Shown in pieces: positions 13,065-32,012 of a stretch of 64,000 nucleotides of DNA. The stretch's first letter is position 1. Every line of letters begins with the position of its first letter. Below the pieces are notes generated by a model, which had not been told where the DNA came from, did no database searches, and saw nothing but the letters and a program-made list of their open reading frames with translations. Source of the stretch: Sphingomonas sp. 28-66-16 (GTDB lineage: Bacteria > Pseudomonadota > Alphaproteobacteria > Sphingomonadales > Sphingomonadaceae). A program made the translations under genes and the position numbers. The DNA lies in assembly GCA_002281485.1 (NCBI GenBank), contig NCGF01000006.1, positions 62,001-126,000 on the forward strand, given 5' to 3'.

Positions 13065-15704
13065 TCAGAAGTTGATCGAGCCGCGGACATAGACGAACCG
13101 GCCGTTGAACCCATAGGGCGACAGGCTCGAATAGGGCAGGAAATAGCTGTTCGGCGTGAAGCCGGCAGCGATCGGCAGGCGATCGGGATAGACGTCGAAG
13201 GCATTGTCGACGCCGGCGGCGAGTTCGTAATTCTTGAAGATCTTGCCGCGAATTTCGAAATCGGTGATCCATTTCGGCGTCAGGGTGAAATCGCCCGTCT
13301 GGGTGCCGAGCGCGGGAATGTTGACCGTTCCGTTGGTGACCGTCACCCCGCTAGAGGCGGCACTGCTCACCTTGCCATAGCGGTTGGTCCGCGCCGTCAG
13401 GCTTAGATCGCCCAGCGTCCAGTCGACCGCGAGATTGATCTTGCTGCGCGGCTGGCCGTCGGTGAGACGGAAGCTTTCGGTGCGGCCGAACAGCACCGAA
13501 TTGGTCAGCGTCGGGATCGAAAGCGCCGCGCGGCTGGTGATCTTGGTCTCGTTATAATTGTAGCCGGCGGTCAGGCGGAACTTGCCCAGCCCGAATTCGG
13601 GGACGCGATAGGTGCCGATAATGTCGACGCCCTGGGTGCGCGTGTTGACGCCGTTGACGAAGAATCGCGCCGAGGTGACGTTGTTGATCCCGGCCGCCTG
13701 AAGCTGCGCAACGACCGCGCCACCGGTGAGGTTTTCGGTGAGCACGATCCGGTTGCGGATTTCGATGTTGTAATAGTCGGCGGTGAGGCTCAGCCCGGGG
13801 ATGAGATCGAGCGCGATGCCGCCGGCGATGTTGGTTGCCTTCTCGGGACGCAGCGGCTTTGACCCAAGCGCGCGGGCGACCGGGTCGCTGACCGGGAAGG
13901 TGCCGACCTCGATCAGCTGGGCCACCCCGTTGACGACGGTATTGTTGGTCGAGGTGGTCGCGAAGAATTGCTGCGCGAGGCTCGGCGCGCGGAAGCCCGA
14001 CGAGATCGAGCCGCGGATCGCGACCCCCTTGAATGGCTCATAGCGCGCGGCCGCCTTGCCGTTGAAGGTCGAGCCGAAGTCCGAGTAATTTTCATAACGG
14101 CTGGCCAGCTGCAGCGTCAGCTGGTCGTTGATGTCGGTATCGAGCTCGACATAGCCCGACCAGTTGCTGCGCGTCGCATCGACCGCATTGTTCGGACGGA
14201 AACCGGGAAATACCTGCGACCCGCCCGACGCGTTGAAGGGGGCTGCCGAGAATGGGCCGTTGATATAGCTGGTCGGCTCGCCCGCGCGGATCTTGAAATT
14301 CTCGGTCCGGTATTCGCCGCCAAACGCGATGCCGACCGATTTGAAGAAGCTCAAATCCAGCTTGCGCGAGAAATCGAGGTTGAGGACATGCTGGCCCAGC
14401 GACAGGCCGCCGGCATCGAACTTGCGCGGGCTGGCGATCCCTCCGAGCGACGTATTGAAACTGCTCTCGACGCCGTAATCAAGGCGATTCGAACCATAGA
14501 CCAGCGACAGATCGGCGGTCCACTCGCCGAGCGATGCCTTGACGCCGATCGCGCCCGAGACATCGCGGATATCACTGTCGATCAGCGGCAGGAAACCATC
14601 GGGATAAAAGGGCACGAAGGTCGTCGTCGATGCCGCGAAATCGCGGTTGCGGGCATCGTTGCTGCGCCGAAAGAAACCGGCGCCATTGGCGTCGCGCTGG
14701 CCGTAGCTGCCAAAGGCATAGGCCTCAACATCGGGGGTCAGCTCGTAGCCGGCGTTGATGAAGATATTATAGTCGGTTGCCTTACCGTCGCCGTAGCGGT
14801 GGTTGTAGCGGTTGATCGTCAGCTCGCGCGGATCGCCGATCGTTGCATATTGGCGGCGGGGATCGGCGCCGCTGCGATTGGTGGGATCGCGATCGCGGAA
14901 TTGCGCCGAGAACACGAAATAGCCGCGATCGCCGACCGGCAGGCCGAGCCGGGTCGCCAGCGTCAGCGTCTGACCGTCATGCACCTCGCGGTCCTTGCCG
15001 GTGGTGTTGAGCTGAAGAATGTCGTTGCCGCCGCCACCGGCGACGGCGACGATCGGCAGGCCGGTGGGGCCGACCGCGACGCCGGTCGCCTGGCTGACAC
15101 CCGGCATCACCGAATTGTACGCGCCATAGGTGACCGACGCGCTGACGCCGGTCTTGCGCGACAACTGGAGGTTGATGACGCCGGCAATCGCATCCGACCC
15201 ATATTGCGACGCCGCGCCATCGCGCAGGATTTCGATGCGATCGATCGCGATCGGCGGGATCTCGTTGAGATCAACCGCCGATGACCCGCGCCCGACCGAG
15301 CCGTTGAGATTGAGCAATGCGGCGGAATGGCGGCGCTTGCCGTTGATCAGCACCAACGTCTGATCGGGCGAGAGGCCGCGCAGCGTCGCCGGTCGCAGCG
15401 AATCGGTACCGTCGGTAAGCGAGGGCTGCGGGAAGTTGAACGAAGGCACCAGCTGATTGAGCACCTTGTTGGTCTCGGTATAGCCCGACGCCTGCAGCTC
15501 CTCACCGCCGATCACGTCGATCGGCACCGGGCTTTGCGCCACCGTGCGCGTCGCGAAGCGGCTGCCGGTGACGACGATCGTATCGCCAGGCGCTGCGGGC
15601 TCGTCGGCGGCCGGCGCCGATTGGGCATAGGCGGGCAGCGCCGCGAACATCGCCAGCGCCGAAGCAGATACCGAAAGCTGTGAAAAGATCGATCGTTGCA
15701 TCAT
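13065..15704 (-). CDS. TonB-dependent receptor
   Basis: The 879-residue receptor starts at ATG 15704 with GGGGAC upstream. The signal peptide ends at PAYAQS. A TonB-box-like DTIVVTGSR is followed by the plug (QSPVPIDVIGGEEL, ETNKVLNQLVPSFNFPQPS, RGLSPDQTLVLINGKRRH, DRIEILRDGAASQYGSDAIAGV). This is the plug style of receptors in the CirA/BtuB superfamily common in sphingomonads. The barrel ends in YVRGSINF with a terminal Phe. No neighbouring transporter or enzyme reveals the ligand. It converges on hspQ. Confidence 0.93.
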   Translation of the reverse strand: MMQRSIFSQLSVSASALAMFAALPAYAQSAPAADEPAAPGDTIVVTGSRFATRTVAQSPVPIDVIGGEELQASGYTETNKVLNQLVPSFNFPQPSLTDGTDSLRPATLRGLSPDQTLVLINGKRRHSAALLNLNGSVGRGSSAVDLNEIPPIAIDRIEILRDGAASQYGSDAIAGVINLQLSRKTGVSASVTYGAYNSVMPGVSQATGVAVGPTGLPIVAVAGGGGNDILQLNTTGKDREVHDGQTLTLATRLGLPVGDRGYFVFSAQFRDRDPTNRSGADPRRQYATIGDPRELTINRYNHRYGDGKATDYNIFINAGYELTPDVEAYAFGSYGQRDANGAGFFRRSNDARNRDFAASTTTFVPFYPDGFLPLIDSDIRDVSGAIGVKASLGEWTADLSLVYGSNRLDYGVESSFNTSLGGIASPRKFDAGGLSLGQHVLNLDFSRKLDLSFFKSVGIAFGGEYRTENFKIRAGEPTSYINGPFSAAPFNASGGSQVFPGFRPNNAVDATRSNWSGYVELDTDINDQLTLQLASRYENYSDFGSTFNGKAAARYEPFKGVAIRGSISSGFRAPSLAQQFFATTSTNNTVVNGVAQLIEVGTFPVSDPVARALGSKPLRPEKATNIAGGIALDLIPGLSLTADYYNIEIRNRIVLTENLTGGAVVAQLQAAGINNVTSARFFVNGVNTRTQGVDIIGTYRVPEFGLGKFRLTAGYNYNETKITSRAALSIPTLTNSVLFGRTESFRLTDGQPRSKINLAVDWTLGDLSLTARTNRYGKVSSAASSGVTVTNGTVNIPALGTQTGDFTLTPKWITDFEIRGKIFKNYELAAGVDNAFDVYPDRLPIAAGFTPNSYFLPYSSLSPYGFNGRFVYVRGSINF

Positions 15705-21009: not shown

Positions 21010-22124
21010 TGGATTTTTCCCCGGCGAATTGCCCGCGGCTGATCGTCAAGGTCGGCTCGTCGTTGCTCGTCACACCGGATGGGCAGGTTCGGCGCGATTG
21101 GCTGGCCACTTTGGCCGCCGATATCGCCGCGCGGGTTCAGGCGGGTCAGCAGATCGCGGTGGTGTCGTCGGGCGCGATCGCGCTCGGCGCGCGGCGTCTC
21201 AAGCTCGCCAAAGGAGGCCGCGCCAGCCTCGAGGATGCGCAGGCCGCCGCCGCGACCGGGCAGATTGCGCTCAGCCAGATCTGGGCCGAACTGCTCGGCG
21301 CCGAAGGGCTCACCGCCGCGCAGATGCTGGTGACGCTCGACGATCTCGAGGATCGGCGGCGCTATCTCAATGCCTCGGCGACGCTCAACCGATTGCTGAC
21401 GCTCGGCGTCGTTCCGGTGATCAACGAGAATGACAGCGTCGCCACCGAGGAAATACGCTTCGGCGACAACGACCGGCTCGCCGCGCGCGTCGCCCAGGCC
21501 GCCGGCGCCCAGGGCGTGGTGCTGCTGTCCGATGTCGACGGCCTCCATGCCGCCAACCCGCTCACCCATCCCGAAGCGCCGCTGATCGAGCGGGTCGAGC
21601 GGATCGACGCCGCGATCGACGCGATGGCGAACGGCGCCTCGTCATCGGGGATGGGATCGGGGGGGATGGCATCGAAGATCGCCGCCGCGCGGATAGCCAC
21701 CGGGGCGGGCGTCGCCCTCGCCATCGCCTCGGGCCGAGTCGATCACCCGCTGGCGCGCCTCGCCGACAGTGGGCGCGGCACGCTGTTCGTTCCCGAACGC
21801 ACCGCCAATGCGCGCAAGGCGTGGCTTGCCGGCGGGCTGACCGCGCGCGGCCAGATCGCGATCGATGCCGGCGCCGCGCGGGCGCTGGCGGATGGCAAGA
21901 GCCTGCTCGCCGCCGGCGCCCTCAGTGTCACCGGGCGATTTCGGCGCGGCGATCTCGTCGCGATCCTGGGCCCCGACGGGGGCGTCGTGGCGCGTGGGCT
22001 GAGCGAATATGATGCCGATGATGCGGCTCGTTTGTGCGGCACGCGCAGCGAGGATCACGCCGCGATCCTCGGCTATGCGCCGCGTTCGGCGCTGGTCCAT
22101 CGCAATCAGATGGCGCTGCTGTGA
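21009..22124 (+). CDS. proB: Glutamate 5-kinase
   Basis: The start at ATG 21009 overlaps the previous stop. An in-frame ATG at 20934 lies inside the upstream gene. The 371-residue protein shows an amino-acid kinase domain (RLIVKVGSSLLV, VVSSGAIALGARRL, PVINENDSVATEEIRFGDND, LLSDVDGLH, GGMASKIAAARIA) and a C-terminal PUA domain from ~residue 275. It phosphorylates glutamate in the first step of proline synthesis and is normally feedback-inhibited by proline. It overlaps the next gene by 4 nt (GTGA). Confidence 0.97.
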   Translation: MDFSPANCPRLIVKVGSSLLVTPDGQVRRDWLATLAADIAARVQAGQQIAVVSSGAIALGARRLKLAKGGRASLEDAQAAAATGQIALSQIWAELLGAEGLTAAQMLVTLDDLEDRRRYLNASATLNRLLTLGVVPVINENDSVATEEIRFGDNDRLAARVAQAAGAQGVVLLSDVDGLHAANPLTHPEAPLIERVERIDAAIDAMANGASSSGMGSGGMASKIAAARIATGAGVALAIASGRVDHPLARLADSGRGTLFVPERTANARKAWLAGGLTARGQIAIDAGAARALADGKSLLAAGALSVTGRFRRGDLVAILGPDGGVVARGLSEYDADDAARLCGTRSEDHAAILGYAPRSALVHRNQMALL

Positions 22125-23029
22125 TCGTCGCGCTGACCGGCGGCACCGGTTTTGTCGGCAGGCGCCTGATCGCGCTCGCGGTCGAGGCCGGCCACGAGGT
22201 CCGCGCGCTCACCCGTCGCCGCCAGGCTGCAGAGCCCGGCGTCAGTTGGATCGAAGGGGCGCTCGACAACCCCGCGGCACTGGCGACGCTGGTCGATGGG
22301 GCCGACGCCGTCATCCATGTCGCCGGCGTCGTCAGGGCGCCCGACCGCGCCGGCTTTACCGTGGGCAATATCGACGGGACGCGGGCGATCGTCGCCGCCG
22401 CGCTCGGCGCCGGCGTCGACCGCTTCGTCCATGTCTCTTCGCTCGCCGCGCGCGCGCCCGCGCTGTCGGACTATGGCTGGTCGAAGGCCGAATCCGAACA
22501 GCTCGTCTGCAGCGCGGCATTGCCCTCGGCGGTGATCGTCCGCCCGCCCGCCGTCTACGGCCCCGGCGATCTCGAGATGCTCGACACCTTCCGCGTCGCG
22601 CGCTGGGGCGTCGCCTTCACCCCGCCGGCAGGCCGGATGGCGGTGATCCATGTCGATGATCTCGCCCGGCTGCTCCTCGCCCTCGCGGCCGACGCCGCTT
22701 ACGGCGGCGTGCTCGAGCCCGATGACGGCACCCCCGGCGGCTGGAGCCATGCCGATTTCCTTGGCCATGCGATCGGCAAGGCCGTCGGCAAGCGAGTCAC
22801 GCCGATCGCCCTGCCCCGTCCGCTGTTGTCGCTCGCGGCGCGGATCGACGGCGCGCTGCGCGGGGCCGATGCGCGGCTGACGCCGGACCGCGTCGGTTAT
22901 ATGTGCCACCCCGACTGGACGGTCGATCCCTTGCGGCGCCCGGATCCGGCGCTGTGGCAGCCGCAGATTCCCACCCGCGACGGTCTGGCCGAGACCGTCG
23001 CCTGGTATCGGGCGCAAGAGCTGCTCTGA
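22121..23029 (+). CDS. NAD-dependent epimerase/dehydratase, CerR-like
   Basis: The start is GTG 22121, overlapping the proB stop. The 302-residue SDR protein begins with the dinucleotide motif TGGTGFVGRRL, followed by VIHVAGVVRAPDR and a YGWSKAESE active site (YxxxK). It belongs to the NDUFA9-like extended/atypical SDRs. Family knowledge: in Caulobacter an enzyme of this type (CC_1164, CerR) adjacent to acp and spt is needed for ceramide synthesis and acts on the 3-keto group. Its position beside the acp-spt pair here supports the same role. A generic oxidoreductase is the alternative. Confidence 0.75.
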   Translation: MIVALTGGTGFVGRRLIALAVEAGHEVRALTRRRQAAEPGVSWIEGALDNPAALATLVDGADAVIHVAGVVRAPDRAGFTVGNIDGTRAIVAAALGAGVDRFVHVSSLAARAPALSDYGWSKAESEQLVCSAALPSAVIVRPPAVYGPGDLEMLDTFRVARWGVAFTPPAGRMAVIHVDDLARLLLALAADAAYGGVLEPDDGTPGGWSHADFLGHAIGKAVGKRVTPIALPRPLLSLAARIDGALRGADARLTPDRVGYMCHPDWTVDPLRRPDPALWQPQIPTRDGLAETVAWYRAQELL

Positions 23030-23038
23030 GCGGCGCCG

Positions 23039-23551
23039 CTATCGAATATGCTGGCCGACGAACGCCAGCGCCGACACGATCAACCCGGTCAGGAACACCT
23101 TGTAGGCGAGCTCCAGCCGGCGATATTTCTTGCGCTGAAGCACCTGACCGTTGCCGTACAGATCGACCGCCATCGCCCGCAGCATCGTCTCCTCATCGGC
23201 CATCGTTTCGATCATCCGATCGACGAAATCATCCTGCGACAGCTGGGTGAAAGAGCCGAAGAACAGCAGGTTGAGCGGGACACCCGCCGGCATCCGCGTC
23301 TTCGGTATGATGGCGAGCACCGTCATCACCGCGCTGCCGAACGCGAACAGGCCAAGGATCAGCAGTGGCAGCGGCGGTGTCCCCGAACGGCCCTGATTGA
23401 TCATGATCGTGAAGGTGACGAAGCTCGCCCCCATCAGGATACTCGCTTTCTGATCCGCCATCTGGCTCAGCTGGACGTGGATCATCTCGGTGGTGCGCAC
23501 CATATGGATGGCATTGGGCGCGAAGCGGCGCGGGGTCTCGGCGGTTTCCAT
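23039..23551 (-). CDS. DUF5706/Pycsar effector-like two-helix membrane protein
   Basis: I use ATG 23551 (METAETPRR); the frame extends to a TTG at 23587. The 170-residue protein has QLSQMADQKASILMGASFVTF with a first membrane helix, a second helix (LLILGLFAFGSAVMTVLAII), then a cytoplasmic helical part and a C-terminal hydrophobic segment (KVFLTGLIVSALAFVG). The ADQKASI(L)xGA signature is that of DUF5706, which includes the membrane effectors of Pycsar anti-phage systems. No cyclase gene is adjacent. It converges on the CerR-like gene (9-bp gap) and is divergent from acp, so a housekeeping role in the sphingolipid locus is possible. Confidence 0.7.
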   Translation of the reverse strand: METAETPRRFAPNAIHMVRTTEMIHVQLSQMADQKASILMGASFVTFTIMINQGRSGTPPLPLLILGLFAFGSAVMTVLAIIPKTRMPAGVPLNLLFFGSFTQLSQDDFVDRMIETMADEETMLRAMAVDLYGNGQVLQRKKYRRLELAYKVFLTGLIVSALAFVGQHIR

Positions 23552-23640
23552 CTGGTCAAGGTGACACGGCGGTCGCGCGATTGCCAATTATTCGCCGCAT
23601 TCGCTAGGCAAGGCCGCATCGACCCCGCTAAGGACATTCG

Positions 23641-23883
23641 ATGAGCGATCGCGCCACCATTTCGTCAACGATCACCGATCTGATCGAGCCCTTCAACAAA
23701 AAGGGCGTCGCGCTCACCGAGGCGACCAGCTTCCAGACCGATCTGGAATGGGACAGTCTGACCGTGATGGACTTCGTCGCGAACATCGAAGACGAGTTCG
23801 ACATCATCATCACGATGAACATGCAGGCCGAGATCGAGACCGTCGGCCAGCTGATCGATGCCGTCGTCAAGTTGAAGGGCTGA
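23641..23883 (+). CDS. Acyl carrier protein of the sphingolipid locus
   Basis: This 80-residue acidic four-helix ACP has Ser39 in LEWDSLTVMDF, the phosphopantetheine site (DSL). It is distinct from the fatty-acid AcpP, which has a longer, more acidic sequence. It lies 4 bp upstream of serine palmitoyltransferase. In Caulobacter and other alphaproteobacteria a dedicated ACP (AcpR) next to spt supplies the acyl thioester used for sphingoid base formation. Co-transcription with spt is nearly certain. Confidence 0.92.
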   Translation: MSDRATISSTITDLIEPFNKKGVALTEATSFQTDLEWDSLTVMDFVANIEDEFDIIITMNMQAEIETVGQLIDAVVKLKG

Positions 23884-23887
23884 TCGC

Positions 23888-25156
23888 ATGACCGAAGCCG
23901 CCGCCACCGCGCATGCCTTGCCGATCGAAGCCGAGACGGTCGCCCCCGAACATGATCTGTTCAGCAAGTTCGATCCGCTGATCGCCGAGCGCCAGGCGCT
24001 GGTCGACAGCGGCGTGCGCGATCCCTTCGCGATCGTGATGGACGCAGTGAAATCGCCGACCGTCGCGATGATCAAGGGCAGGGAAACGATCCTCGTCGGC
24101 ACCTATAATTATATGGGGATGACCTTCGATCCCGATGTCATCCAGGCGGGCAAGGATGCGCTCGATCAGTTCGGCTCGGGCACCAACGGCAGCCGCATGC
24201 TCAACGGCACGTTCCGCGATCATATCGCCGCCGAAGACGCGCTCAAGGAATTTTACGGCGCCTCGTCAGCAATGGTGTTTTCGACCGGTTATCAGGCCAA
24301 TCTCGGGATCATCTCGACGCTCGCCGGCAAGGGCGAATACATCATCCTCGACGCCGACAGCCATGCCTCGATCTATGATGGCTGCGCGCTGGGCAACGCC
24401 GAAATCGTCCGCTTCCGCCACAATTCGGTCGATGATCTTGACAAGCGGCTCGGCCGCCTGCCCGCAGAGGCCGGCAAGCTCGTCGTGCTCGAAGGCGTCT
24501 ATTCGATGCTCGGCGACATCGCGCCCCTGAAGGAAATGGTCGCGGTCGCCCGGCGCCACGGCGCGATGGTGCTGGTCGACGAAGCCCATTCCATGGGGTT
24601 TTTCGGCACGCATGGCCGCGGCGTCTATGAGGATCAGGGGCTCGATCTCGGCGCCGACGTCGATTTCGTGATCGGCACCTTTTCCAAATCGGTCGGCACC
24701 GTCGGCGGCTTCTGCGTCTCCAACCATCCCAAGTTCGAAGCGATGCGGATGGTCTGCCGCCCCTATATCTTCACGGCCTCGCTGCCACCCTCGGTGGTGG
24801 CGACAGCGGAGACTTCGATCCGCAAGCTGATGCACGCGCACAACAAGCGCCAGCATCTGTGGGAGAATGCGCGCGCGCTGCATGACGGCCTGCGCGCGAT
24901 GGGTTTCAAGCTCGGCACCGAAACCCCGCAATCGGCGATCGTCGCGGTGATCCTCGAGGATCAGGCGCAGGCGATCATGATGTGGCAGGCGCTGCTCGAA
25001 GGTGGCATCTATGTGAACATGGCGCGCCCGCCGGCGACGCCTGCCGGCACGTTCCTGCTGCGCTGCTCGCTGTGCGCCGAACATAGCGCCGATCAGGTGG
25101 CCGCGATCCTGGCGATGTTCGAACTGGCAGGCCGTGCTGTGGCTGCGATCGACTAA
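23888..25156 (+). CDS. spt: Serine palmitoyltransferase
   Basis: The 422-residue PLP enzyme belongs to the alpha-oxoamine synthase family. Key parts are YNYMGMTFDPDV, FGSGTNGSRMLNGT, LVDEAHSMGFFG and GTFSKSVGTVGGF, with the PLP lysine at residue 267. It condenses serine with an acyl thioester to 3-ketosphinganine. The serine-specific families (KBL, BioF, HemA) share the fold, but the NGSRMLNGTFRDH and SMGFFGTHGRG motifs and the adjacent ACP match bacterial SPT. This is the committed enzyme for the glycosphingolipids that sphingomonads use instead of LPS. It is followed 50 bp later by a histidine kinase. Confidence 0.95.
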   Translation: MTEAAATAHALPIEAETVAPEHDLFSKFDPLIAERQALVDSGVRDPFAIVMDAVKSPTVAMIKGRETILVGTYNYMGMTFDPDVIQAGKDALDQFGSGTNGSRMLNGTFRDHIAAEDALKEFYGASSAMVFSTGYQANLGIISTLAGKGEYIILDADSHASIYDGCALGNAEIVRFRHNSVDDLDKRLGRLPAEAGKLVVLEGVYSMLGDIAPLKEMVAVARRHGAMVLVDEAHSMGFFGTHGRGVYEDQGLDLGADVDFVIGTFSKSVGTVGGFCVSNHPKFEAMRMVCRPYIFTASLPPSVVATAETSIRKLMHAHNKRQHLWENARALHDGLRAMGFKLGTETPQSAIVAVILEDQAQAIMMWQALLEGGIYVNMARPPATPAGTFLLRCSLCAEHSADQVAAILAMFELAGRAVAAID

Positions 25157-25206
25157 CGCCCCCTTTCGCTTCCCCCGCTTGTCCGCAGCGACTAGGGTCG
25201 CCCGGC

Positions 25207-27195
25207 ATGACCGAACCTGATCCGAACGCGGCACGGCTGGCTGACCGCGACAGGCCGTGGCGGAGCGCGATGCTGGCAGTGACCGCGCTGCTGGGCGCGG
25301 CGGTGCTGATCGCACTGATGCTGACGCTGGGCGAGGCGACCCGCCAGCGTGACCGGGCGCTTCAATTGCAGGATCACAGTTTCCAAGTGATGTCGCTCGC
25401 CAGGTCGCTGTCGGCAACGACGGCGCGTGCCGAAGCCGCACTCGGGCGCTATGTGATCAGTGCCGATCGGCGGCTCGGGGTCCTCTATGGCGAGCAGTGG
25501 CAGCTCGCCGGCGCACAGCTCGATCAGCTCGGCAAATCGGCCTTTGCCGATCGCTCGCAGCAAATCGCCCGGATCGAAGCGCTGCGCAAGGCGTACCGGG
25601 CCCGCGGCGAAGAACTCGGGATGATCGCGCTGAGCACGCGCTATCGCAAGAACGACCAGGCGTTGTCGCGCTTCTACCAGGCGCGGGAGTCGCAATCGCT
25701 CACCCAGATCAACACGCTGCTCGATCAGATCATCGCAACCGAACGAAGCCTGCTCGCCGAACGGACGAGCGCGGCGCTTCGGTCGGTCAAACAGTCGACC
25801 GATGCGGCGACGGTGCTGATCGCATTCGGCATTCTGATCGCGCTTGGCGCGATCCTGCTCGGCTGGATGACCGTGGAAGCGCTTGGCCAGCGCGCCGTCG
25901 CGCGTGCCGAGGCCGATGCCGAACGCGAGCGTGCCTTCGAACTCGAACGGGCGGTCACCGCCGCGACCGCCGAACTTCAGCAACAGGCCGAGGAGCGCGC
26001 CGCGACCGAGGAGCGGCTCCGGCAAGTTCAGAAAATGGAAGCCGTCGGCCAACTTACCGGTGGGATTGCGCATGATTTCAATAATATGCTCGCGGTCGTT
26101 CTGGGCGGGCTCGAACTCGCCAAGCGCAATATCGACGATCCCGCCGGCGTCGCCCGTCATATCGACAATGCTGCCGAAGGCGCCAACCGCGCGGTCGCGC
26201 TGACCAAGCGTCTGCTCGCCTTTTCGCGGGCCGAACCGCTGCTCCCCGCGGCGATCAGGGCCCGCGATCTGATCGAGGGCATGTCCGACATGCTCGATCG
26301 CACGCTGGGCGATGCCATCACCGTGGTCACCGCCGACGATGGCCATGACTGGCGTACCTTCGTCGATCGCCACCAACTCGAAAACGCGCTGCTCAACCTC
26401 GCCGTCAACGCCCGCGACGCGATGGAGGGCCGCGGAACGCTGACGATCAGGACCGGCGGCTGCCGGCTCGATGCAGGGCAGATCAACGCCTGTGCGGCAG
26501 GCGAATATGTCACGATCGCGGTGACCGATACCGGATGCGGCATTTCGACCGACGTGCTCGACCGGGTGTTCGAGCCCTTCTTCACCACCAAGCCGGTCGG
26601 CAAGGGTACCGGTCTCGGGCTGAGCCAGATATTCGCGCTCGTGAAACAGTCCCAGGGCGAGATCACGATCGATTCGAGCCCAAGGGGCACCACCGTCACG
26701 CTCTATCTGCCCCGCTACGAAGGCACTGACGATGTCGCCTCGCCCGCCTGCGACGGCGCCGAAACCGGCGATGCCGTCACCAGCGAGGCCCTGACGATCC
26801 TGATCGTCGAGGACGATCCCCGCGTGCTCGCCAGCACGACGGCAGCGGTCGAGGCGCTGGGGCACCGGCCGATCAGTTGTAGCGACCCAACGGCGGCGAT
26901 CACGATGCTGCGCGGCGATCCGGCGATCGCGCTGATCATCAGCGACGTGCTGATGCCCGGGCTGACGGGCCCTGAAATGATCGCCCGGCTGCGGCCGATG
27001 TTCCCCGACGTCGCCGTGCTGTTCGTGACCGGCTATGCGGGTGAAGCGGGCGATACCCAGGCGTTTGGCGGCCATGAGGTGCTCCGCAAGCCCTTCACGA
27101 TCGCAGCGCTTGGTCACGCGATCGCCCGTGCGACCGGGCAGCACGGCGACGAGACCGGACCGCTCCCCAAGCTTGCGGCACGATTTCATGGCTGA
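25207..27195 (+). CDS. Hybrid sensor histidine kinase with CHASE3-like domain
   Basis: The 662-residue protein has TM1 (MLAVTALLGAAVLIALMLTL), an extracytoplasmic helical CHASE3-like domain (to ~195), TM2 (VLIAFGILIALGAILLGW) and a coiled coil. A HisKA domain with phospho-His289 in GGIAHDFNN follows, then an HATPase domain (LLNLAVNARDAM, DTGCGIS, GKGTGLGLSQ). A C-terminal receiver domain has Asp580 in ISDVLMPG. It lies between spt and lptF on the same strand, with lptF 70 bp downstream, so it may be co-transcribed with the sphingolipid/Lpt genes. The ligand and any external response regulator are unknown. Confidence 0.9.
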   Translation: MTEPDPNAARLADRDRPWRSAMLAVTALLGAAVLIALMLTLGEATRQRDRALQLQDHSFQVMSLARSLSATTARAEAALGRYVISADRRLGVLYGEQWQLAGAQLDQLGKSAFADRSQQIARIEALRKAYRARGEELGMIALSTRYRKNDQALSRFYQARESQSLTQINTLLDQIIATERSLLAERTSAALRSVKQSTDAATVLIAFGILIALGAILLGWMTVEALGQRAVARAEADAERERAFELERAVTAATAELQQQAEERAATEERLRQVQKMEAVGQLTGGIAHDFNNMLAVVLGGLELAKRNIDDPAGVARHIDNAAEGANRAVALTKRLLAFSRAEPLLPAAIRARDLIEGMSDMLDRTLGDAITVVTADDGHDWRTFVDRHQLENALLNLAVNARDAMEGRGTLTIRTGGCRLDAGQINACAAGEYVTIAVTDTGCGISTDVLDRVFEPFFTTKPVGKGTGLGLSQIFALVKQSQGEITIDSSPRGTTVTLYLPRYEGTDDVASPACDGAETGDAVTSEALTILIVEDDPRVLASTTAAVEALGHRPISCSDPTAAITMLRGDPAIALIISDVLMPGLTGPEMIARLRPMFPDVAVLFVTGYAGEAGDTQAFGGHEVLRKPFTIAALGHAIARATGQHGDETGPLPKLAARFHG

Positions 27196-27265
27196 CGCCG
27201 ACGAGCCGGGCGGATATAGCGGCGGCGACGGGCGTATTCGGGCGCCCCGCCAACGCCTCAAGGCC

Positions 27266-28471
27266 ATGTCCTTCCGCATGAATTCGATCGATCGCTACAT
27301 GGCCCGGCTGATCGCCGTGCCGCTAATTTCGACGCTGGTGATTTCGGCGATGCTGCTCGTGCTCGATCGCATGCTGCGGCTGTTCGATTTCGTCGCGACC
27401 GAAGGCGGGCCGGTGAGCGTGGTGTGGAAGATGCTGGCCAATCTGTTGCCCGAATATCTCGGCCTCGGCATTCCGATCGGGTTGCTGCTCGGGGTGCTGC
27501 TGGCGTTCCGCCGGTTGTCGACGACATCGGAGCTCGACGTGCTCCGCGCCGTCGGCATGAGCTACACCCGGCTGTTGCGCGTGCCCTATATGTACACGAT
27601 CGCGCTCGCGCTCGTGAACCTGGCGATCGTCGGCTATGTCCAGCCCTATGCGCGCTATGCCTATGAAGGGCTGCGTTACGAATTGCGCACCGGCGCGCTC
27701 GGCGCGTCGATCAAGGTCGGCGAGTTCACCAATTTTCCCAATGGCGCCACCGTGCGGATCGAACGCAGCGAGGATCAGGGGCGCAAGCTTTCCGGAATCT
27801 TCGTCCACAAGGATACGCCGAACGGCGGCTGGCTCGCGGTGACCGCGGCGAGCGGCCAGTTCCTGGGCACCGACAACCCCGACGAGATCATCTTCAGATT
27901 GACCAACGGTACGCTGATCAGCATCGCCGATGCCAGCGCGACGCCCCGAACGCTGACCTTCAGTTCGCATGATCTGCCGATCCCGCTGCCCAAATCGGAA
28001 AATTTCCGCAACCGCGGCGAGCGCAATCTCGAACTCACCCTGCCCGAGCTCGCACGGCTGGGCGGGAGCCCCGATGCATCGATGGAACAGCGCGACACGA
28101 GCCGCGCGGCGTTTCACTTCCGGATCGCCGAAGTCGCGACGATGTTCCTGCTGCCGATGCTCGCGCTCGCGCTCGGCGTGCCGCCCAAGCGATCGAGCTC
28201 GGCGCTCGGCGTGTTCCTGTCGATCATCATGATCGTCACCTATCACAAGGTCAACGAATACGCCCAAGCGGTCGGCTCGCTCGGCAAGATCGACCCGTTC
28301 ATCGCCTTATGGGTGCCGTTCGCGCTGTTCGCGGCGCTGGTGATCTGGATGTACCACACGATTGCCTATGTCCCCGGCGGCCAGCCGATCGGCGCGCTCG
28401 AGCGCGGCTTCGCCAAGATCGGCCCGAGCCTGGCCCGGTTGGTGCGTCGGCGGCACCGGGAGAAAGCCTGA
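27266..28471 (+). CDS. lptF: LptF-type permease of the envelope lipid ABC exporter
   Basis: I use ATG 27266 (MSFRMNSIDRYMARL). An ATG at 27188 would overlap the kinase gene and add a low-complexity leader. The 401-residue protein shows the YjgP/YjgQ layout: three N-terminal helices, a periplasmic beta-jellyroll (about residues 130-290) and three C-terminal helices. The start IDRYMARLIAVPLISTLVI is typical. LptF and LptG form the inner-membrane channel of the LptB2FG exporter that hands LPS to LptC. In sphingomonads, which contain glycosphingolipid in place of LPS, the cargo may be sphingolipid. The stop overlaps lptG by 1 nt (TGATG). Confidence 0.92.
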   Translation: MSFRMNSIDRYMARLIAVPLISTLVISAMLLVLDRMLRLFDFVATEGGPVSVVWKMLANLLPEYLGLGIPIGLLLGVLLAFRRLSTTSELDVLRAVGMSYTRLLRVPYMYTIALALVNLAIVGYVQPYARYAYEGLRYELRTGALGASIKVGEFTNFPNGATVRIERSEDQGRKLSGIFVHKDTPNGGWLAVTAASGQFLGTDNPDEIIFRLTNGTLISIADASATPRTLTFSSHDLPIPLPKSENFRNRGERNLELTLPELARLGGSPDASMEQRDTSRAAFHFRIAEVATMFLLPMLALALGVPPKRSSSALGVFLSIIMIVTYHKVNEYAQAVGSLGKIDPFIALWVPFALFAALVIWMYHTIAYVPGGQPIGALERGFAKIGPSLARLVRRRHREKA

Positions 28472-29565
28472 TGCGGTCGCAATTCTTCCCGTCGCGGACG
28501 GTCTCGCTCTATATGGGCAAGATGTTTCTGGTGCGGACGCTCGCCATCCTGGCGGCGCTCGTGCTGGTGCTGCAGGCGCTCGACCTGTTGAGCGAATCGG
28601 GCACGATCCTTACTTATCCAGGCAATGGCGATGCCCAGATCTGGCGCTATGTCAGCCTGCGCACGCCCGAGATCATCGCGCGCTTCCTGCCGTTTTCGGT
28701 GCTGCTCGGCACGATTATCACGTTGACCACGCTCAACCAGAACAGCGAAGTGATCGCCCTCAAGGCCTCGGGCCTGTCGGCGCACCAGGTGCTCGCGCCG
28801 CTGATCGTTGCCAGTCTGGCGATTGCAATGCTGTCCTTTGCCTTCAACGACCGGATCGTCTCCCGCGCGACCGCCACGCTCAACCGCTGGCAAAAGGTGC
28901 AATATGGCCCGATGCCCACCGATCGTGGCGATCGCCAGAACGTGTGGGTGCGCGACGGCGAAGACCTGATGCTGGTCGGGCAGGTCAAGGGCAAAGGCGA
29001 TCAGGCCAAGCTGTCGACCGTGACGATCTATGATCGCGAAGACGGCAATCTCGCCGCCATCATTCGCGCGCCGCGGGGCGTTCGCGACGGCGATGGCTGG
29101 CGAATCGGACCTGCGACGCGCTTTGCGGTGGCGAGCGGCAAGACGACGCCGATGGGCGCGATCGTCGTCGCGCGCGGGGTGCGGGCCGATCAGTTCACGC
29201 TGACCAACATCGACGCCGACGGCACCTCGTTCGGTGCGCTGCGCGAGGCAATTGCCGATCTCGGGGCCGCCGGTCGGCCGACCAAGGCGCTCGAGGGATC
29301 GCTGTGGCACAAGATTTCGGGGCCGCTGTCATCGGTGCTGATGCCGCTGCTTGGCGCCGTGGCGGCGTTCGGGCTCGCCCGTTCGGGCCAGCTCTTTCTG
29401 CGCGCGGTGATCGGGATGTCGCTAGGCTTCGCCTATTTCGTTGCCGACAATTTCGCGCTCGCGATGGGCAATCTGGGTGCTTATCCGCCGTTTCTGGCGG
29501 CGTGGGCGCCGTTCCTGCTGTTTCTGATGATCGGCGAATTGCTGCTCGTCAGAACCGAGGAATAG
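28471..29565 (+). CDS. lptG: LptG-type permease of the envelope lipid ABC exporter
   Basis: The start at ATG 28471 is fixed by the 1-nt overlap with lptF. The 364-residue protein begins SRTVSLYMGKMFLVRTLAILAAL, has a periplasmic jellyroll and ends with helices including SSVLMPLLGAVAAFGLARSG and MSLGFAYFVADNFALAMG. It pairs with LptF and the ATPase LptB, which is not in this window. It converges on the desaturase gene, with 1 bp between the stops. See lptF for the substrate question. Confidence 0.92.
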   Translation: MRSQFFPSRTVSLYMGKMFLVRTLAILAALVLVLQALDLLSESGTILTYPGNGDAQIWRYVSLRTPEIIARFLPFSVLLGTIITLTTLNQNSEVIALKASGLSAHQVLAPLIVASLAIAMLSFAFNDRIVSRATATLNRWQKVQYGPMPTDRGDRQNVWVRDGEDLMLVGQVKGKGDQAKLSTVTIYDREDGNLAAIIRAPRGVRDGDGWRIGPATRFAVASGKTTPMGAIVVARGVRADQFTLTNIDADGTSFGALREAIADLGAAGRPTKALEGSLWHKISGPLSSVLMPLLGAVAAFGLARSGQLFLRAVIGMSLGFAYFVADNFALAMGNLGAYPPFLAAWAPFLLFLMIGELLLVRTEE

Positions 29566-29566
29566 C

Positions 29567-30673
29567 TCAGCGCCCCCGGCGGGTCATCGTCGAGCCCACC
29601 AACCGATCGACCAGCCCGGGCAGCCCCGCATAATTCGCCCGATGATAGGGCGAGTCGGGAGCCAGCGTCGCCGACAACCGGCGATGCGCCTCGGCAAGCG
29701 CGTGATATGGCAGGCCCGGCAGCAGATGATGCAGCGCATGATAGCGCAGCCCGACCGGCGCCCAGAGCTGAGGCAGCATCGCCGGTGGCGGAACGTTAAC
29801 GCTATCGAGGAACTGCGCGGTGACCGACATCGCTTCCCCTTCATTCTCCCACAGATGCGCGACCAGCGTGCGGACCTGGTTGATAACCGCCACCCCGGCG
29901 GCCACCGCGAGGAAGATCAGAAAAGCGCGCAGCGCAACGGTGCCGGTCGCGACCAGCGTCAGCAAGGTGATCGCCCAGGCGCTGCACGCTGCCGCCTGCC
30001 AACGCCACTGACGCGCGAGCGGCCCCTCGGGCGGGCGCCGGACAAAGGCCGGATTGATCGATAGTGCCGAATAGCGCGCAACGACCGTGTCGCGCAGCGC
30101 TGGAAAGAGCGCCGCAAGCGGGGTGATCACGCCGAACCGGAACAGCAGCGCGACCGGCGCGAGCAACGACGCAGCGATGAACAGTGGCAGCGTCCAGGGC
30201 TTCATCAGCGCCAACGGCAGATATTCCGGATCCTCGACGGTGCCATAGCGGGTGCGGGCATGGTGGAGCGTGTGGACGCCCTCATAGAGAAACGAAGGCA
30301 CCATCATCGGGACGCCGACGAGCAGGTTCCACCCGAGCCGAAAGCCGGGCACCGCGCTATGCTTGATATGCGTCAGTTCGTGGATAAAGCTGCCGGCACG
30401 GTACAGTGCCAGCACGGCAACCGCTCCGGCGAGCAGCGCCCAGCCGATCGCCGGTATCAGGATCGCGGCAGCCAGCGCGGCATAGCCGATCGTCGCCGAC
30501 GCCAGGAGATCGGCCCAATATACCAGCGGGCGCGGCGCATGCAGATCGCGCGTGAGCTCCGCCGCTGCGCGCAGCATCGCCATATCGTCCGCAATCCGGG
30601 TCGAACGCGGCCGTGCCGACGCCGGCGCCGTTTCGCCTGAGGTCCGACGATCGAGAAAAAGCGTGTTGTTCAT
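29567..30673 (-). CDS. Membrane fatty acid desaturase
   Basis: The 368-residue protein starts at ATG 30673. Three histidine boxes typical of membrane di-iron desaturases are present: HELTHIKH, HTLHHA and HALHHLLP, with paired hydrophobic segments between them. It would introduce a double bond or hydroxyl into an acyl chain at the cytoplasmic face. It sits between lptG and the ceramide-synthase-like gene, and sphingolipid desaturases/hydroxylases share this fold. A role in modifying sphingoid or ceramide acyl chains is plausible but not shown by sequence. Confidence 0.85.
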   Translation of the reverse strand: MNNTLFLDRRTSGETAPASARPRSTRIADDMAMLRAAAELTRDLHAPRPLVYWADLLASATIGYAALAAAILIPAIGWALLAGAVAVLALYRAGSFIHELTHIKHSAVPGFRLGWNLLVGVPMMVPSFLYEGVHTLHHARTRYGTVEDPEYLPLALMKPWTLPLFIAASLLAPVALLFRFGVITPLAALFPALRDTVVARYSALSINPAFVRRPPEGPLARQWRWQAAACSAWAITLLTLVATGTVALRAFLIFLAVAAGVAVINQVRTLVAHLWENEGEAMSVTAQFLDSVNVPPPAMLPQLWAPVGLRYHALHHLLPGLPYHALAEAHRRLSATLAPDSPYHRANYAGLPGLVDRLVGSTMTRRGR

Positions 30674-30807
30674 AGTGTGGGAAAATGCCCAAAGATCGTG
30701 GCGATATGGTGGCAAATTGCGGCGATTACTCTCCCCCCGCGGCCACCGCTTGACATCGCGGCGCGAAGGTTGGACGTCACCGCCCTTGGCGACAAAGGGT
30801 CTTCATC

Positions 30808-31965
30808 TTGGCTAGCAATCCCCTTGCGGTGCATCCGGTCAGCAGCAATGCCGATCGCAAGGCTTTTATCGACATCGCCTACACGCTCAACGGCGACGAT
30901 CCGAATTGGGTCCCGCCGCTCCGCTCGGAGGTCGCCGGCACGATCGATCCGAAGAAGAATGCCTGGTTCAGCCATGGCCGCGGCCAGCTTTTCCTGGCGA
31001 CGCGCGGCGGCAAGCCGGTCGGGCGGATTTCGGCGCATATCGATACGCTGGCGCTCGACATGCCGGCCGATCGCGGTTTCGGCCCGGGCACCGGTTTCTG
31101 GGGGATGTTCGATGCCGCCGATGCGACGACGGCGCGGGCGCTGATCAATACCGCCGAGGATTGGCTTCGCCAGCAGGGCATGACCCGCGTGATCGGCCCG
31201 GTCAGTCTGTCGATCTGGGAAGAGCCAGGGCTGCTGATCAAGGGTCAGGATCATCCGCCGACCGTGATGATGGGCCATCATCCGCCGCAATATCAGTCTT
31301 GGATCGAAGCCGCGGACTATCACCCCGTCAAGCAATTGCTGACCTTCGAACTCGATATCACCACCGGCTTTCCACCGATCGTCAATCGCATCATCCAGTC
31401 GGGCGAGAAGAATCCGCGCATCGTCATCCGCCAGGTCGACAAAAGCAAATTCGCCGCCGAAGCCGAGATCATCCTGGCGATCCTCAACGATGCCTGGTCG
31501 GACAATTGGGGGTTCGTCCCGCTGACTCCGCCGGAAATCGCCGATGTCGGCAAGAAACTCAAACCGATTGTGTTCGAGGATCTGATCCGCATCGCCGAAC
31601 TTGATGGCGAGCCCGTCGCCTTCATGATCACCCTGCCCGATCTCAACGAAGCGATCGCCCCGCTCAAGGGATCGCTGCTGCCGTTCGGCTGGGCAAGGCT
31701 GTTGTGGTGGCTGCGCAAGCCGCAAGTGCGGACGATGCGCGTGCCGCTGATGGGCGTGGTTAAACGGCTGCAATCGTCACGAATGGCAAGCCAATTGGCC
31801 TTCATGATGATCGAATATATCCGTCGTGCTGCGATCGCGCGCTACGGCGCCACGCGTGGCGAGATCGGCTGGATCCTCGACGACAATCAGGGGATGCGCT
31901 CGATCGCCGAAGCGATCAACAGCCACGTCAACCGCGTCTATCAACTTTACGACAAGGCGCTGTAG
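30808..31965 (+). CDS. GNAT-fold protein, candidate bacterial ceramide N-acyltransferase
   Basis: The start is TTG 30808 with AAGGG upstream. The 385-residue protein has an N-terminal portion NPLAVHPVSSNADRKAFIDIAY, then GDDPNWVPPLRSEV, SHGRGQLFLATRGGKPVGRISA and GVIGPVSLSIW-like (VIGPVSLSIWEEPGLLI). A C-terminal GNAT half ends in EIGWILDDNQGMRSIAEAI. Relatives are often labelled dATP pyrophosphohydrolase, with no supporting motif. Family knowledge: the Caulobacter ceramide synthase bCerS (CC_1154) is a GNAT-like acyltransferase near spt. Location and fold make this gene the best candidate for N-acylation of the sphingoid base. It is divergent from the desaturase. Confidence 0.7.
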   Translation: MASNPLAVHPVSSNADRKAFIDIAYTLNGDDPNWVPPLRSEVAGTIDPKKNAWFSHGRGQLFLATRGGKPVGRISAHIDTLALDMPADRGFGPGTGFWGMFDAADATTARALINTAEDWLRQQGMTRVIGPVSLSIWEEPGLLIKGQDHPPTVMMGHHPPQYQSWIEAADYHPVKQLLTFELDITTGFPPIVNRIIQSGEKNPRIVIRQVDKSKFAAEAEIILAILNDAWSDNWGFVPLTPPEIADVGKKLKPIVFEDLIRIAELDGEPVAFMITLPDLNEAIAPLKGSLLPFGWARLLWWLRKPQVRTMRVPLMGVVKRLQSSRMASQLAFMMIEYIRRAAIARYGATRGEIGWILDDNQGMRSIAEAINSHVNRVYQLYDKAL

Positions 31966-31981
31966 CGGCGACATGGGCCAT

Positions 31982-32012
31982 GGGCTCGCCGCACCGTCCA
32001 GGCGGCGAGCCC
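31982..32012. terminator. Strong hairpin between convergent genes
   Basis: GGGCTCGCCG (31982-31991) pairs perfectly with CGGCGAGCCC (32003-32012) over an 11-nt loop. There is no long T tract, so it may act as a Rho-assisted or mRNA-protecting structure for both convergent genes. Confidence 0.5.

Follow-up and report, generated by a model that had tools for sequence, protein, structure and literature searches.

A Sphingomonas ceramide-synthesis locus carries a distinct LptFG permease pair that probably serves sphingolipid export

INTRODUCTION

How do bacterial sphingolipids reach the outer membrane? Two papers from 2024 state that the route is unknown (PMC11324152, PMC11087976), and the question is raised by a locus of Sphingomonas sp. 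28-66-16 in which lptF and lptG, predicted to encode the membrane subunits of an LptB2FG-type ABC transporter, lie among genes for ceramide synthesis. The locus is part of the window, a 64,000-nt stretch of contig NCGF01000006.1, and coordinates below are positions in the window unless another genome or locus is named. An earlier note, made from the letters of the window, had suggested that the genes gathered here could together make, modify, sense and export the lipid. We consider it likely, from comparison of sequences, that the locus couples ceramide synthesis to export, with a dedicated permease of a type that we call B loading sphingolipid onto an otherwise standard Lpt route. The gene content of the locus is ordinary, and a transport role has in part been proposed already for Caulobacter; what is new is comparative. 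LPS (lipopolysaccharide) genes are missing, no further lptFG pair was found, and the pair present falls in a separate permease subfamily, three observations that go beyond the earlier note.

RESULTS

A single lptFG pair in a genome without detectable LpxC or LpxB

We searched 99 genomes of the order, comprising the window's own (G000, 86% complete) and 98 others that are at least 90% complete. LpxC was found in none of them, own genome included, in a search whose positive controls included E. coli and Caulobacter. LpxB had no match in the own genome, G005 or G012. For these two lipid A genes, the ones that the search covered, the window's genome thus does not fit a canonical LPS exporter. LptFG matches were present in 96 of the 99 genomes (exactly two in 82, more in 13, one in 1) and absent from 3. 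The own genome has two PF03739 matches only, both at this locus, and on that count we rejected the idea, for an assembly 86% complete, that the pair is a second copy beside a canonical one elsewhere. An LptD partner is encoded on a contig other than that of the locus (G000:C38:33399-34502, E 9.7e-62). No match to PF06835 (LptC) was found in the own, 86% complete, genome, and one was found in G005 of the same genus. The alphaproteobacterium Rhodothalassium salexigens, assigned to an order of its own, is described as lacking LPS and having dihydroceramides (PMC11762602).

A class-wide sample of 153 alphaproteobacterial genomes contained 25 positive for serine palmitoyltransferase (SPT), defined as exceeding the NF047599 cut-off (lowest 590.5 bits, next 331), and 129 positive for LpxC; four of the 24 LpxC-negatives (G220, G234, G240 and G242) were assigned by elimination. 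LpxC was missing from 17 of the 25 SPT-positive and 7 of the 128 SPT-negative genomes (Fisher 1.6e-11, not corrected for shared ancestry). Four or more LptFG matches were found in 7 of the 8 genomes with both LpxC and SPT, G154 having two, and exactly two in 16 of the 17 with SPT and no LpxC, G145 having none. LptD, present in 141 of the 153 genomes, was single in all 8 of the former and in 16 of the 17 latter (none in G145). LpxB was missing from 16 of these 17, in G242 by elimination, with a weak 105-bit match in G138; it is also missing from LpxC-positive G115. Each of the 8 genomes with LpxC and SPT has one LptC match.

The window pair belongs to a permease subfamily that accompanies SPT

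Both window permeases exceed the curated cut-offs for LptF and LptG, placing them in the LptB2FG permease families. We built trees of LptF and LptG with 67 rows each, E. coli not included and the second LptF piece of G001 (L177) dropped before the LptF tree. One group, the LPS type or type A, is cut off from the rest by a 100/100 branch in both trees; its 25 rows are 16 from LPS-only genomes, 6 from genomes with SPT and LpxC, and 3 from genomes with neither. Type B, which includes the window, has 41 rows, of which 21 come from the order, 13 from SPT-only genomes and 7 from genomes with SPT and LpxC. In neither tree do the window permeases group with those of LPS makers; they lie opposite type A in both, on which ground we rejected re-use by Sphingomonas of its LPS permease. 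Seven genomes with SPT and LpxC carry both pairs; their second copies join the window pair in type B, and in 4 of these genomes (G226, G189, G114 and G212) they lie on the spt contig stretch. This tree grouping, together with gene order, suggests that the window pair corresponds to the sphingolipid-associated LptF2/LptG2. Four SPT-negative family sisters of SPT-positive genomes (G116, G247, G120 and G133) are all type A, as are G139, G142 and G198, which have neither LpxC nor SPT yet match LpxB. SPT-negative G112 carries a second, extremely divergent LptFG-like pair (L185; G112:C2, ~499772-501927; 82 and 76 bits) whose placement is unsure: its LptF falls inside type B, with a branch length of 4.7, and its LptG sits at the midpoint root.

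A type-B LptF profile was built from 18 sequences, with 16 of the 23 positive genomes contributing. It scores 405-548 bits in 23 of the 153 class genomes, and the next best score is 183 (183.3, the best SPT-negative); the seven type-B genomes outside profile building still reach 405-501 bits, and window LptF scores 509.8 bits. Type-B LptF is present in 23 of the 25 SPT-positive and none of the 128 SPT-negative genomes (Fisher 2.5e-25, not corrected for ancestry). In 7 of the 8 genomes with LpxC and SPT, one LptF match exceeds 400 bits and another, elsewhere, scores 128-159 bits, which makes one of each type. The SPT-positive genomes missed by the profile are G145 and G154.

The two types also differ in short signatures, counted with L185 omitted (the column table omits L185 and L169). 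The motif [ED][RK][ML][LVI] in transmembrane segment 1 (TM1) of LptF occurs in 40 of the 41 type-B and 2 of the 25 type-A rows, and a basic residue at the columns of E. coli LptG K40/K41 in all 25 type-A and 6 of the 41 type-B rows. These signatures mark the subfamily, not the cargo, and the basic pair was rejected as proof of cargo, as the matching E. coli double mutant, K40E/K41E, is reported to grow normally (PMC5548808).

The permease genes are interspersed with a ceramide-synthesis set

The locus runs from proB through the genes listed here, in this order.

22121-23029, plus strand: CerR-like NAD(P)-binding reductase with an epimerase/dehydratase fold (PF01370, 77.9 bits)
23039-23587, minus strand: PycTM-family membrane protein (PF18967, 85.7 bits; PADLOC PycTM, 50.6 bits)
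23641-23883, plus strand: acyl carrier protein (ACP), in the AcpR position directly 5' of spt (PF00550, 34.9 bits)
23888-25156, plus strand: SPT (NF047603, 800 bits, cut-off 670)
25207-27195, plus strand: CHASE3-HisKA-HATPase-REC hybrid histidine kinase, by domain profiles, starting 50 nt downstream of spt
27266-28471, plus strand: LptF, type B permease subunit (TIGR04407, 247.6 bits, cut-off 230)
28471-29565, plus strand: LptG, type B permease subunit (TIGR04408, 283.7 bits, cut-off 240)
29567-30673, minus strand: FA_desaturase-family membrane oxygenase (PF00487, 86.9 bits)
30808-31965, plus strand: tandem-GNAT protein, probable bacterial ceramide synthase (bCerS), by AlphaFold2 model and PDB structure match

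All eight genes of the earlier note are present within 22121-31965; the ninth, the PycTM-family gene on the minus strand, had not been on its list. The GTG start of the reductase gene overlaps the proB stop, and the lptF stop is overlapped by the lptG ATG (TGATG). Scans of 22000-32000 for promoters (3 found versus 1.5 expected) and terminators (9 versus 5.9) were uninformative.

That the locus makes ceramide, as had been suggested, is well supported: SPT, ACP, CerR-like reductase and tandem-GNAT protein form a conserved ceramide set, among which lptF and lptG are interspersed. SPT lies above the curated cut-off of its equivalog family and matches PDB 2jg2, a serine palmitoyltransferase, at 750 bits. 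The phmmer matches of the reductase include NDUFA9/NUEM subunits of complex I, among other epimerase-fold proteins, and Caulobacter CerR has been likened to this NDUFA9 group (PMC11087976); the window accordingly has an NDUFA9-like reductase beside acpR-spt. It differs from Caulobacter CerR, described in the same paper as periplasmic, in that no signal peptide is visible and the protein starts at the Rossmann motif. For the GNAT protein, Pfam gave nothing above cut-off and NCBIfam nothing at all, and a PDB sequence search with its profile yielded 0 matches. Its AlphaFold2 model, from a 28-row alignment, has a predicted local distance difference test score (pLDDT) of 92.4 and adopts a GNAT fold whose best PDB match is the tandem GNAT 7q3a (E 5.3e-15). 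We take the protein to be a probable bCerS. A GNAT gene lies beside spt or lptFG in 16 of the 22 SPT-positive genomes outside the order. In all four clusters inspected for it (L139, L135, L100 and L095) an AMP-binding enzyme is encoded 5' of cerR, where the window has proB; this is the position of the Caulobacter acyl-ACP synthetase.

Gene order is conserved in relatives

The earlier note had set conservation of gene order among relatives as a check, and the order is conserved. Gene presence, counted at no less than 60% query coverage, was followed in the best 80 of 584 confirmed SPT places, of which 65 span at least 21 kb; nearly all of these records carry the name Sphingomonas or that of close kin in their titles, and one (L042) is titled Bacillus. 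These 80 loci contain acpR in 79 cases, the reductase in 77, lptF in 76, lptG in 75, the kinase in 67, the GNAT gene in 54, the desaturase in 53 and PycTM in 7. Some loci end early. Among the 60 that have lptG and 4 kb or more of sequence past it, 52 contain GNAT and 47 the desaturase; among the 78 with 3 kb or more following spt, 67 contain the kinase. The grouping of these genes is not due to chance. Across the 99 order genomes an SPT of at least 387 bits is present in 98, and spt lies less than 12 kb from the nearest listed lptFG match in 73 (start-to-start 1.2-10.3 kb, median 4.0), so we rejected the notion that this genome is exceptional in having lptFG near spt. In the remaining genomes the two are farther apart on the same contig (12) or on different contigs (10), or LptFG (3) or SPT (1) was not found. 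By family, linkage holds in 19 of 38 genomes of f1, the window's family, 24 of 25 of f5 and 21 of 22 of f8. Elsewhere in the order and the class, other families also keep the ceramide set and the gene order.

The arrangement suggests two modules. Of 75 loci with both permease genes, 65 have the pair downstream of spt on the same strand, 8 have it upstream and inverted, and 2 are arranged otherwise. Among the 77 loci having the reductase, 75 place it upstream of spt at a distance of no more than 3.5 kb, and the kinase lies no more than 300 nt downstream of spt in all 67 of its loci, including all 8 with inverted upstream lptFG. GNAT lies within 3.5 kb of lptG in 54 of 54 loci, and the desaturase within 1.5 kb of lptG in 52 of the 53 having both. 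Since the kinase stays with spt in the inverted loci, and GNAT and the desaturase stay with lptG, we distinguish cerR-acpR-spt-(kinase) from lptF-lptG-(desaturase)-gnat.

Accessory genes of the locus

In the desaturase-family protein three histidine boxes (H99/H103, H135/H138/H139 and H313/H316/H317) are invariant in 12 of 12 aligned sequences, and together with the family profile they place it among FA_desaturase/ceramide hydroxylase proteins. Its fold model was poor (pLDDT 71.6), with no PDB structure match at E 0.001 or better, and a PDB sequence search with its profile gave 0 matches. A fatty-acid hydroxylase (PF04116) lies between lptG and gnat in two other loci (L100:16102-16884 and L095:1677-2459), where the window has its FA_desaturase-family gene; a lipid-modifying oxygenase thus recurs in this slot, drawn from different families. 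In Caulobacter, the DesA-family protein CC_0202 reportedly adds a hydroxyl group to the amide-linked chain (PMC11324152). By analogy with these hydroxylases and with CC_0202, hydroxylation is at least as likely as desaturation, and the enzyme is a plausible candidate ceramide modifier. Modification, the second of the roles once suggested for the locus, is plausible given the gene's close attachment to lptG, but the gene is absent from 13 of the 60 loci with room. A relative of the desaturase lies beside spt in G151 (L100, 283 bits). Between lptG and gnat in L139 (family f5) lies a gene for a 507-amino-acid protein with no Pfam match (13391-14914). In other families DAGK_cat lipid-kinase genes lie between spt and lptF (L139:9228-10241 and L100:9992-10981); they are candidate ceramide kinases, of which the window locus has none.

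CHASE3 domains are extracytoplasmic. The hybrid kinase bearing one is an accessory, lineage-specific addition, and it is doubtful that the locus forms a complete make-modify-sense-export unit in which this kinase acts as a sensor of the exported lipid and exerts feedback on its synthesis, an arrangement that would be compatible with coupled synthesis and export and would add to it. The proposal draws on CHASE3 being a sensor domain and on the kinase lying directly 3' of spt in every locus that has it, the latter being what a sensing role for the locus rests on. However, the kinase is missing from 11 of the 78 loci with room, from G005 and G054 of the same genus, and, with a threshold of 150 bits, from all clusters retrieved from other families; its Pfam matches include no DNA-binding domain, and no ligand support was found. 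The sensing role is therefore unsupported.

The PycTM-family gene sits between cerR and acpR in 7 of the 80 loci. As neither neighbouring gene is a cyclase, it resembles an orphan effector-like gene lodged within a lipid locus.

A model for ceramide synthesis coupled to export, and its rivals

From the gene content and synteny, the paralogue split, the co-occurrence with SPT, the lack of detectable LpxC and LpxB and the single LptD, we infer enzyme activities, a substrate, a direction of transport and roles for the desaturase and the kinase. SPT would condense serine with an acyl thioester, probably carried on the neighbouring ACP; the tandem-GNAT protein would add the second acyl chain, and the CerR-like reductase would reduce the keto group. 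Before export, the ceramide probably receives a hydroxyl group or a double bond from the desaturase-family enzyme; the kinase would have been added in this lineage. LptF and LptG would be the membrane subunits of an LptB2FG-type ABC transporter whose cargo is not LPS, a lipid that the cell apparently does not make, and would pull the finished sphingolipid from the inner membrane into the remaining Lpt route with its one outer-membrane LptD. Export, also among the earlier suggestions, gains strong comparative support from the type-B LptF census, the trees and the missing LpxC. Type B would be an old paralogue of the LPS permease, kept alone where LPS synthesis was lost. On balance we favour a cargo swap in the whole order and in further lineages (13 genomes with ten other family codes in the sample), in which LPS synthesis and its LptFG were lost and the sphingolipid pair came to feed the same single LptD.

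It is unlikely that type-B LptFG instead exports some other outer-membrane lipid or glycan, for instance a hopanoid or another glycolipid, that co-occurs with sphingolipids, and sits here through shared regulation. Its substrate is deduced from context, and the window cluster contains no headgroup enzyme, unlike L139 and L100 with their lipid-kinase genes, both of which would suit another cargo; yet the co-occurrence is with SPT itself (23/25 versus 0/128), and in 52 of 60 loci with room the permease genes have the candidate ceramide synthase gene close by, as they also do in G012 (L149), where they have moved away from spt.

Very unlikely, too, is a conserved chromosomal stretch, from obgE and proB to xth, that holds spt and lptFG without a functional tie. 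The flanking housekeeping genes are indeed kept in the 80 loci (obgE in 68, proB in 76, xth in 40), but spt, cerR, acpR, lptFG and gnat come together, variously arranged, in many further families, and the SPT co-occurrence census is independent of position. Hardly credible is an ordinary LPS exporter for an unusual LPS made without LpxC or LpxB, since the presence of LptD and the scores above NCBI LptF and LptG models named for LPS export are set against the lack of LpxC in all 99 order genomes, the lack of LpxB in 16 of 17 SPT-positive, LpxC-negative class genomes, and the position of the window pair outside the LPS type in both trees.

Several observations weigh against coupled synthesis and export through type B. 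The own assembly is 86% complete; 13 of the 99 order genomes have more than two LptFG matches, the extra ones untyped, and 3, draft assemblies of 100-370 contigs, have none. Linkage of spt and lptFG reaches only 19 of 38 in the window's own family, 8 of 60 loci with room have no GNAT gene next to lptG, and in L147 (G054, same genus) lptF follows spt directly, with no kinase, and neither GNAT nor desaturase lies in the 6 kb beyond lptG. The type-B pair is off the spt contig in 3 of the 7 two-type genomes (G167, G217 and G115) and in SPT-only G242 and G155. A second LptC, as proposed for Caulobacter, was not seen, as PF06835 is single in the 8 genomes with LpxC and SPT and unmatched in the own genome. 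The LptG K40/K41 signature is of uncertain meaning. G154 clusters SPT, ACP, reductase and GNAT (L103, L166, L182) and, with LpxC present, has a type-A pair only. G145 has cerR-acpR-spt-gnat (L186, G145:C1:1495000-1514900) and no match to LptFG, LptD, LptC, LpxC or LpxB, so SPT does not always go with Lpt. The latter is a single-contig genome with transposase and integrase genes near the cluster, and G234 of the same family has type-B LptFG and LptD.

DISCUSSION

The closest described system is the sphingolipid cluster CC_1168-CC_1152 of Caulobacter crescentus, which includes LptC2, LptF2 and LptG2 and for which sphingolipid transport has been proposed (Olea-Ozuna et al. 2024, PMC11324152). Like the window locus it brings cerR, acpR, spt, lptF, lptG and cerS together, and lptG2 (CC_1155) is numbered next to cerS (CC_1154). 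The presence of lptFG at a sphingolipid locus, which had been taken as unusual, is therefore already published, and it is common across the order (73/99). By that paper's account of the cluster, Caulobacter also has aasR, a flippase gene, lptC2 and headgroup genes, which the window locus lacks, and the window locus, unlike the cluster, carries the desaturase-family gene and the kinase. Caulobacter has LpxC and second copies of LptFG, whereas searches of the window's genome turned up no LptFG pair besides the type-B one and no LpxC. The same paper, in its section 9, calls sphingolipid genes scattered in Sphingomonadales, on the basis of two species. That description and the linkage that we observe can both hold, because only 19 of 38 f1 genomes are linked.

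The enzymes Spt, bCerS and CerR (PMC11087976) form the same set as in the window, down to the NDUFA9-group matches of the CerR-like protein. Compared with E. coli LptB2FG (PDB 6mit, 6mhu and 6s8h), window LptG aligns over nearly its full length and LptF in two stretches; the permease families are the same, and type B is set apart from the alphaproteobacterial LPS type in trees built without E. coli. Among the open-licence PMC papers examined, subscription papers and preprints lying outside the search, only PMC11324152 was found to treat LptF/LptG together with sphingolipids; the text of PMC10734547 contains no Lpt terms.

The lack of LpxC in 99 of 99 order genomes, the one type-B pair and the co-occurrence with SPT turn a guess about export into a claim that is sharp and testable. 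A cell that lacks LPS genes and has a single LptFG pair offers a clean test system for sphingolipid export, free of LPS phenotypes, and type-B LptF may serve as a marker for sphingolipid-exporting, LPS-free bacteria in sequence data. If the cargo swap is true, LptFG would largely decide which cargo the Lpt pathway takes, and a species that makes both lipids would have two permeases supplying a single gate in the outer membrane. Swapping the two permease types in such a bacterium would then, if LptFG sets the cargo, reveal what the Lpt machinery reads in its substrate.

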